From NCBI GenBank assembly GCA_013334335.1, contig JAAXXR010000006.1:1-58884 (forward strand): a stretch of DNA of 58,884 nucleotides, given 5' to 3'. Numbering within the stretch: position 1 is the first letter of the stretch; each line of letters opens with the position of its first letter. The translations under genes and the position numbers were made by a program. Shown here one piece after another: positions 54,912 through 57,028 of the stretch. This DNA is from Chlorobiaceae bacterium. GTDB lineage: Bacteria; Bacteroidota; Chlorobiia; Chlorobiales; Chlorobiaceae. Under the pieces are notes generated by a model that saw only the letters and a program-made list of their open reading frames with translations, searched no databases and was not told the origin of the DNA.

Positions 54912-55118
54912 TCAGCAAACCTCTTCGATAAGGTCGCTGTCGATGGCATCGAAACAGAGTGTGACGGTCTCCCCTGCCGTCATGGCATCCTTAAGCCTGG
55001 CAAGCATCCCGACATAGTCTGCATTGCCCTTCTGGAGTCGGTAAAACCTTGCCGACTCCAGAAACAGGACTTCGACCACCTCCCCTTCTTCAGGGAATCG
55101 GATATCGGCAACCGTCAT
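54912..55118 (-). CDS. Small protein resembling a protein-glutaminase pro-domain
   Basis: 68 residues from ATG 55118. The stretch VVEVLFLESARFYRLQKGNADYVGML... aligns by eye with the pro-region of Chryseobacterium protein-glutaminase (from memory: F-x-FYEI...YIGML...) and, more weakly, with residues 19-80 of the protein encoded just upstream. It lies 125 bp downstream of that gene on the same strand and lacks any catalytic part. In-frame starts at 55166 and 55208 would give 84 or 98 residues but add an unlike leader. Most likely it inhibits or chaperones the glutaminase; this is inference. Confidence 0.6.
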   Translation of the reverse strand: MTVADIRFPEEGEVVEVLFLESARFYRLQKGNADYVGMLARLKDAMTAGETVTLCFDAIDSDLIEEVC

Positions 55119-55243
55119 CTCACGGCAGTAACGCCTTTGCCCGGAGTGGTTCTGCTCATCCCTCATGGCATGCCCCGGTATTCCGGAATACGCACCGGAC
55201 CGGAGCATCGCCCCGATGTCCCGATCCGGAGGAGAGCGTCGGC

Positions 55244-56182
55244 TTAAGGACAGGTATGCAGGTTTTTATAGGCGACCAGCGTAGCATCGGTTGAGGTGTA
55301 ATTGTTGTCTGTCGAGAATTGTGTGCCTGCATAGTTGGCCGGACTGTAAGCAGAACCCGGCTGGATCGCATACATGGAAACATGGGCATTGGGCGAGCAG
55401 CTCTTGACGGCCTGCGCCGAAAGCCAGGTGCTGAGCGCTACCGGCTGGTTGAACATTCCCGGGTCGATCACCATCGCCCTGATCATGCTGAACTTGCCGA
55501 GCGGGACCTTGACCCGGATGAGCGGAGCGACATGGTACCACCAGGTGACGCAGCATCCACCCCACTTTGTCGCCTGGACCGCAAGGGTATCCATGTTGCT
55601 GTTGGCGAAACTGAAGACCTTTTCACAGCAGTAACCGTACTTGGTGGTGATGATCCAGCGCATCTTGTGCGCCCTCGCATAGCATCCGTCCCTGACGTAC
55701 TGGAACGGAATGCACGGATTGATATCGAAAGGTCCGGGAAGCGAGCAGGTCTGGTTCGCGCAATAATCGAAAATGCTCTTCGCCTTCGCATAGTTGGGAA
55801 GAATCTTGGTGCAGAGCGCAAAAACCGGAAACTTGAGATAATGGTCGACGATGTCGAAGGTGGTGTGATCGATCTTGTCAAGGTCGATCTTCCTGGGCTT
55901 TTGCGGGTTTTCAAGCCTGGGCCGCAGGGCTGCGAACTCCTTCACCTCAGTATCGCTCGGAGCCATGATCTTGCTGACCACTCCCCGTGCCGAATCGATT
56001 TCAAGCTTGATCGGCCGTTTCCTGTCGAATGCTTCGTTGATCCGCGAAACGTTCTGGGCAGCCTCGGCGCGCATATCCCCAAGCCTGAAGACCGACGGGC
56101 TCTCGTTGAACAGATACTCCCTGACCTTGCCGTCCGGTGAAGTGCGGATGGCGGCAACCGTGAAAAGATTCCGTGATGACAT
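55244..56182 (-). CDS. Protein-glutaminase (protein deamidase) homologue
   Basis: 312 residues. The C-terminal half matches bacterial protein-glutaminase, which deamidates protein-bound Gln: CIPFQYVRDGCYARAHKM (Cys167), CCVTWWYHVAPL (His217) and MVIDPGMFNQPV (Asp240), the Cys-His-Asp set in the right order and at similar spacing. The N-terminal part (about 19-85) resembles that enzyme's inhibitory pro-domain. Eleven Cys residues suggest disulfides, yet there is no signal peptide, and an excellent AGGGAGGAAG 7 nt before the ATG fixes the start. Target proteins are unknown. The gene is followed by the small pro-domain-like gene. Confidence 0.82.
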   Translation of the reverse strand: MSSRNLFTVAAIRTSPDGKVREYLFNESPSVFRLGDMRAEAAQNVSRINEAFDRKRPIKLEIDSARGVVSKIMAPSDTEVKEFAALRPRLENPQKPRKIDLDKIDHTTFDIVDHYLKFPVFALCTKILPNYAKAKSIFDYCANQTCSLPGPFDINPCIPFQYVRDGCYARAHKMRWIITTKYGYCCEKVFSFANSNMDTLAVQATKWGGCCVTWWYHVAPLIRVKVPLGKFSMIRAMVIDPGMFNQPVALSTWLSAQAVKSCSPNAHVSMYAIQPGSAYSPANYAGTQFSTDNNYTSTDATLVAYKNLHTCP

Positions 56183-56572: not shown

Positions 56573-57028
56573 CTATTCAAGATCGCGCTTCTCGGAGCTC
56601 GACACCAGCTTGTGCAGGATACCGATAACCATGAGCGAAGCCAGAAGCAGGCCGTAATGCCAGGCGTTGAACACTTGCTCCGGGGTCTGGCCCGCGGTGG
56701 CCACCTTGACCGGTTCGACGATCAGCTGCCGGAGTAGCGTGATCATGGCCACCTCGATGAACACCACCAGATGGAACACGCCGTTCTGCACATAGTTGAT
56801 TTCGGCCGAAATCAGGCTCGACAGGGTCCAGACGATGAAGAGCGTGCCGAGCGCCTGCAGGAACCCGTGAGAGAGCTGGTTCTTCTGGACGGCATGCACT
56901 ACGGCCATGACAAATTCCCACAGCACCATCATGCTCGCCATGACGAGCGCGATGGCCAGGAGCACGTGGAGAAAATGGTTGAATCCGCGAAGCGCTCTGA
57001 CCAGACGATCCTCGAACAACTCTTTCAT
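56573..57028 (-). CDS. Phosphate-starvation-inducible PsiE family membrane protein
   Basis: 151 residues with four hydrophobic segments (FLHVLLAIALVMASMMVLWEF, FIVWTLSSLISAEI, VVFIEVAMITLLRQLI, WHYGLLLASLMVIGILHKLV), matching the PsiE family. LSSLISAEINYVQNG and FIEVAMITLLRQ are characteristic. The biochemical role is unknown. No Pho box is evident in the 229-bp gap upstream, which it shares with the divergent SDR gene. Confidence 0.88.
   Translation of the reverse strand: MKELFEDRLVRALRGFNHFLHVLLAIALVMASMMVLWEFVMAVVHAVQKNQLSHGFLQALGTLFIVWTLSSLISAEINYVQNGVFHLVVFIEVAMITLLRQLIVEPVKVATAGQTPEQVFNAWHYGLLLASLMVIGILHKLVSSSEKRDLE

Follow-up and report, generated by a model that had tools for sequence, protein, structure and literature searches.

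A small gene for what appears to be a free-standing pro-domain lies beside a protein-glutaminase (PG) gene in the window, by which we mean the whole stretch of 58,884 nucleotides from a Chlorobiaceae bacterium that was analyzed here. The enzyme already has a pro-domain of its own. If the small protein is read as an inhibitor, this second copy needs a reason. What, then, is it for?

The minus strand carries both open reading frames, first the enzyme (55244..56182, 312 aa, lacking a signal peptide) and then the small gene. Upstream of the enzyme, on the same strand, is a PsiE-family membrane protein (56573-57028; PF06146, 9.8e-14). The enzyme ATG is preceded by a good Shine-Dalgarno sequence, GGGAGG. 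For the small gene, the first-pass annotation gave a 68-aa product at 54912-55118. An ORF is present there (54912..55118, minus strand), and this minimal conserved frame (MTVADIRF...IEEVC) encodes the stand-alone pro-domain homologue, with the predicted fold beta-beta-beta-alpha-beta-beta. However, 55118 is probably too far downstream to be the start, because in relatives the N-terminus is longer by about 8-20 residues, in several cases with the form RYCR(D/E)-MTV. The longest frame starts at 55208 (98 aa), and no clear Shine-Dalgarno sequence favors 55118, 55166 or 55208. The true start is probably upstream of 55118, with the ATG at 55166 as the better guess. The likelier full gene would then occupy 54912..55166 on the minus strand and encode 84 aa (MRDEQNHSGQRRYCRE-MTV...); its relatives at loci L006 and L003 have 84 and 81 aa. 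The placement of the two genes had been called tight and same-strand. The strand is the same, but the spacing here is moderate (125 nt from 55118 or 77 nt from 55166) and becomes tighter in some relatives, where the gap is 7 nt or the genes overlap by 10 nt. A consensus scan found no terminator-like site between the two genes of the window.

Judged by its sequence, the large ORF is a protein-glutaminase (protein glutamine deamidase), with predicted deamidase activity on protein glutamines. Enzymes of this kind convert glutamines in proteins to glutamates. Its score for the family PF18626 (Gln_deamidase_2) is 85.1 bits, where the curated cut-off is 25 bits. The catalytic domain (residues 134-256; 55415..55783, minus strand) contains Cys167, His217 and Asp240, which are invariant across 13 sequences and are aligned with the triad Cys42/His83/Asp103 of 2zk9. 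The nearest PDB relatives are 2ksv, 3a54, 3a56, 2zk9 and 8z3i. Against NCBIfam NF040782 (PG_glutam_Chrys) the enzyme reaches 125 bits, below the equivalog cut-off of 250, and by this score it is related to the Chryseobacterium equivalog but outside it. The AF2 model of the full-length enzyme has a pLDDT of 69.5, and its catalytic part fits 2zk9 with a TM score of 0.83. The placement of the pro-domain in this model is unreliable, with a whole-chain rmsd of ~17 A relative to 3a56, and we dropped the model as evidence on the interface.

The cis pro-domain of the enzyme spans approximately residues 8-72 (55967..56161, minus strand) and is homologous to the stand-alone protein. By BLASTP, the small protein matches residues 8-64 of the enzyme with 33% identity over 57 aa (E 3e-7). 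The Smith-Waterman score against the enzyme pro-domain is 68, while 5000 shuffles give 25.3 +/- 4.0 with a maximum of 55. When 13 small proteins were compared with 13 cis pro-domains by hhalign, the probability was 98.3 and the E-value 1.5e-14 over 69 columns. A blind search of 177,635 PDB sequences with the small-family profile gave the pro-region of Chryseobacterium pro-PG as the best match (3a56, E 6.5e-5), and a second pro-PG entry, 3a54, followed at E 2.2e-4. The small protein itself is modeled by AF2 with a pLDDT of 94.7. Foldseek ranks 3a56_B (TM 0.78), 3a54_A, 3a56_A and 8z3i as the top four for this model, all of them protein-glutaminase entries with a pro-region or N-terminal domain. 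Owing to the shortness of the domain, these matches have weak E-values (the best is 0.022), though the ranking is clean. Thus, the small protein is a homologue of the enzyme's pro-domain by sequence and predicted fold. The first-pass annotation had suggested resemblance both to the PG pro-region and to the N-terminal domain of the neighboring enzyme, and had named a lack of profile similarity as grounds for giving up the idea. Both resemblances are confirmed and the profile similarity is strong. The enzyme segment that it proposed for alignment, residues 15-85, was nearly right, though the alignable domain lies at about residues 8-72. In Pfam, NCBIfam and PADLOC the small protein has no match above threshold, including none to Pfam I29, and the pair matches no PADLOC defence model. 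Weak matches of the small protein to ExbD, Phd/YefM and TOBE were dismissed as chance.

Since the small gene duplicates a domain of the gene next to it, it could be a functionless relic of a partial gene duplication. We find this hardly credible. Over 67 pairs, the small gene has a median dN/dS of 0.081 (enzyme, 0.073) and is under strong purifying selection. When 44 small proteins and 45 cis pro-domains were placed in one tree, a single split separating these groups was not rejected (AU p 0.54), though the test has little resolving power with 77 columns. A single ancient split would imply that the small gene has been retained for a long time. Repeated, independent and recent duplications were also considered; the tree is compatible with one split, with the same limit on its resolution. 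The small gene is also conserved over five phyla. The selection and conservation results contradict the relic explanation.

This conservation concerns the pair as a unit. Within the Chlorobiaceae, the enzyme is present in 4 of 86 genomes and the small gene in the identical 4 of 86. Eleven genome-contig loci span Chlorobi, Xanthomonadales, Gemmataceae, Verrucomicrobia, Brocadia and Bacteroidetes, and by BLASTP the small gene is directly downstream of the enzyme in 10 of them. The eleventh (L015) has a short, similar-looking downstream frame that was judged by eye only. The pair recurs in Gammaproteobacteria, Planctomycetota, Verrucomicrobiota and Bacteroidota, and overall it is found in five phyla. 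Thus, the co-occurrence in other Chlorobi that had been proposed as a check is observed, and relatives in several phyla keep the pair, whose absence there had been named as evidence against it. The genes around the pair are unrelated between lineages; it is therefore the two genes together that travel or persist. In the Chlorobi genome G041, a caspase-like (metacaspase-type) ORF, named by eye, follows the pair ~3 kb further downstream (L069:6721-7554).

The same association is found in a wider sample. All six genomes of the phylum sample that have the small gene also have the enzyme (6/6). Two of them, G249 and G292, encode a PG of the canonical type, and the small gene follows it after 37 nt in G249 and after 24 nt in G292. 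In the family of G249, which is of the Chryseobacterium type, PF18626 is found in 93 of 299 genomes, and the small-protein/pro-domain profile matches 89 genomes, all among the 93. A separate partner is present in 88 of the 93 enzyme-bearing genomes versus none of the 206 enzyme-less genomes; this 88 is the 89 minus G424, which matches through its cis domain only, and includes a fused partner (G415) and a frameshifted one (G631). The small gene is also present at all 18 additional loci examined later (18/18). In the alignment, the pro-region encoded at L033 and L034 shows no difference from the 3a56 fragment; on that sequence match, these loci are from C. proteolyticum or very near to it. The L033 partner has 102 aa counted from its MKVW start. 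At L062 (G669), a single partner gene lies between two tandem protein-glutaminase genes.

There are exceptions to this association. The partner has decayed to remnants in G587 (L083) and G543 (L084) and is apparently broken by a one-base frameshift in G631 (L085); the enzyme ORF is intact in all three. In G415 (L037:650-1270), the partner is a fusion protein in which a bacterial Ig-like domain (PF20251) follows the pro-domain at the C-terminal end. No partner was detected in the enzyme-bearing genomes G424, G595 and G670. Since the enzyme is kept where the partner is decayed, fused or absent, the partner is not universally essential. No partner was found for the distant PF18626 proteins with no detectable pro-domain (L027, L028, L105-L107), as would be expected if partner and pro-domain go together. 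L105, L106 and L107 are a separate PF18626 lineage with no signal peptide, beside a transglutaminase-like gene (named by eye). A plasmid search gave one distant enzyme, on Sinorhizobium pEMPC1, with no partner detected. The Bacteroidota genome G595 has nine PF18626 matches, several of them in tandem (L061, G595:C2:202000-219500; L063, L064), mixed with papain-family and thiol-activated-cytolysin-like (PF01289) proteins, and with no stand-alone partner detected.

A two-gene unit that looks mobile, is scattered over phyla and has unrelated neighbors could be a toxin-immunity pair, with the deamidase delivered to competitors and the small protein serving strictly for immunity. The array of deamidases beside cytolysin-like and papain-like genes in G595 could be read in the same way. 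Yet this array has no detectable partner, and loss of the partner appears to be tolerated in G543, G587 and G631. No delivery module was seen among the ORFs flanking nine loci, inspected by eye, or among the window genes scanned, and Chryseobacterium secretes its PG freely. We regard a toxin-immunity pair as very unlikely.

The conserved residues of the small protein may point to the active site of the enzyme. In the alignment with the PDB sequences, A23 of the small protein (FLESARFY) is opposite residue 47 of pro-PG (FMLTAQFY), which is Gln in 3a54. The hairpin tip, LESARFY (residues 20-26; 55041..55061, minus strand), is thus aligned with Ala47 of pro-PG. Residue 47 presumably sits in the active site of pro-PG, as we gather from PDB entry names and a paper title. 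The A47Q crystal mutant of Hashizume and colleagues from 2011 reportedly turned the pro-form into an enzyme-substrate complex. That residue 47 of pro-PG enters the substrate site is a well-founded inference. According to its title, as cited in a reference list (PMC9396377), the 2011 structure paper is about the conversion of pro forms to an enzyme-substrate complex. All 44 small proteins have Ser22 (44/44); at position 23, 28 of them have Ala, 10 Pro and 6 Gln. In the cis pro-domains, the same position is Ala in 37, Pro in 4 (Chlorobi, including the enzyme of the window), Gln in 3 and His in 1. At least one partner has Ala at position 23 in each of the 40 aligned cis/stand-alone pairs (40/40). 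Gln at the residue-47 position, as in the A47Q mutant, is found in the cis pro-domains of L007, L009 and L010 and in the stand-alone partners of L016, L032, L036, L053, L062 and L066. It is conceivable, though we think it unlikely, that the hairpin tip is a tunable pseudo-substrate. Locks with a Gln tip could then be deamidated (Gln to Glu) and act as a self-timed or self-reporting switch, with the cis and trans caps differing in role.

These residues also bear on whether the small protein might be a helper rather than an inhibitor, that is, an intermolecular chaperone for the folding or secretion of the catalytic domain. The linkage and co-inheritance of the two genes would fit such a helper equally well. 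Pro-regions often serve as folding aids as well, and this common double role speaks for it. A secretion-related role was also guessed in 2018 for the matching neighbor in C. proteolyticum (PMC6132073). However, all partnered enzymes examined with a complete N-terminus bear their own cis pro-domain, which would make a folding aid in trans redundant. The greatest constraint is at the hairpin tip, aligned with the residue that presumably mimics substrate in the active site, and in some genomes the partner is broken although the enzyme ORF is intact. We consider a folding helper unlikely.

The compartments of the two proteins agree. By a simple hydropathy and motif scan, rather than SignalP, the signals match in every pair examined. 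Neither protein has one in 8 pairs, from Chlorobi, Planctomycetota, Verrucomicrobiota and Xanthomonadales, and both have hydrophobic N-termini in 34 pairs from Bacteroidia, where the partner usually carries a lipoprotein-like motif, ITSC or LQSC. This motif, together with the fusion of the G415 partner to an Ig-like domain, would suit a regulatory or anchoring subunit, a small lipoprotein that forms a stable complex with the processed enzyme, instead of being purely a lock, and tethers it to the membrane or adjusts its choice of substrate. But the partner has no signal or anchor in the four signal-less lineages, and therefore anchoring cannot be the shared function. A subunit of this kind seems quite unlikely to us.

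Homology, fold, linkage, co-inheritance, purifying selection and the agreement of signal peptides are established. As to function, we consider it probable that the small protein is a trans-acting pro-domain inhibitor for self-protection. The system would be a two-gene unit, consisting of a deamidase with an inhibitory N-terminal pro-domain and a free second copy of that pro-domain. Acting in trans, the free copy would bind to the deamidase's catalytic cleft, and the tip of its beta-hairpin (S-A/P/Q-Q/R) would fill the substrate-glutamine site as Ala47 of pro-PG would. Enzyme that is prematurely activated or has leaked would be kept silent in the producer's own compartment. In Bacteroidia this would be the periplasm, with the partner as a lipoprotein; in Chlorobi and the remaining lineages without signals, it would be the cytoplasm. 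It speaks against this reading that Chlorobi show no visible export route for the enzyme, so that self-protection there would mean protection against cytosolic enzyme. PGB becomes ~17-fold more active once its propeptide is removed. After cleavage, the propeptide is purified along with mature PG, and in the C. proteolyticum case 4 M urea is required to strip it off (PMC13139226). Because the cleaved propeptide stays on the mature enzyme, trans-binding of a free PG pro-domain is, by analogy, physically plausible.

The first-pass annotation had not seen such a pair described. In the literature searched, with subscription journals largely outside its scope, we found no inhibitor or immunity protein of protein-glutaminase, no recognition of a PG neighbor as a pro-domain, and no free propeptide-like inhibitor of a protein deamidase. 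A matching neighbor, however, was noted in 2018 as a hypothetical protein. In C. proteolyticum QSH1265, ORF 3589 was described as a 'highly conserved hypothetical protein' with a predicted promoter shared with the PG gene; it has a 22-aa signal and 80 further aa, 102 aa in total, and the authors suggested a role in the secretory pathway and reported no homology to a pro-domain (PMC6132073). It equals the L033 partner in length, 102 aa, and the two are matched by length, not by sequence. Protein-glutaminase is sold for the deamidation of food proteins, with Chryseobacterium as its source, and the pair is also present in the bacteria behind that enzyme. A widespread partner derived from PG's own pro-domain was apparently overlooked until now. 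If it is an inhibitor, it would account for the producers' tolerance of a deamidase with such broad action and could be a natural tool for the control or purification of PG.

The closest structural counterpart of the small protein is found within PG itself. The pro-region of Chryseobacterium proteolyticum PG (3a54/3a56; Hashizume et al. 2011) is a homologous domain, but one that forms the N-terminal portion of the enzyme precursor, whereas the window protein is a separate product beside a cis pro-domain. The nearest likeness in arrangement is Spi of Streptococcus pyogenes, a propeptide analogue encoded beside SpeB and thought to silence prematurely active SpeB inside the producer (PMC2873492, PMC3462683). 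As in the window, a small protein adjoins the gene of a papain-fold cysteine enzyme, and both linkage and pro-region homology are shared. SpeB is a C10 protease, whereas the window target would be a protein deamidase, and the likeness is one of proposed mode of action. Other free-standing relatives of inhibitory pro-regions are the I29 proteins (crammer, CTLA-2, BCPI) and the Plasmodium SUB1 propeptide-like protein (PMC4089206, PMC6993865), which are eukaryotic and act on proteases. With a deamidase as its presumed target and no I29 match, the small protein would fall outside the Spi/SpeB and I29 families. Staphostatins and Bfi inhibitors are co-transcribed beside the papain-fold staphopains and Bfp proteases (PMC2873492), but staphostatins are lipocalin-like and, unlike the small protein of the window, not derived from a pro-domain. 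Thus, free-standing propeptide-like inhibitors are already known for proteases, and one for a protein deamidase appears to be new. If the small protein is an inhibitor, the principle of the propeptide as a separate inhibitor, so far one of proteases, would also hold for a protein-modifying enzyme in several phyla, with an exact structural prediction.
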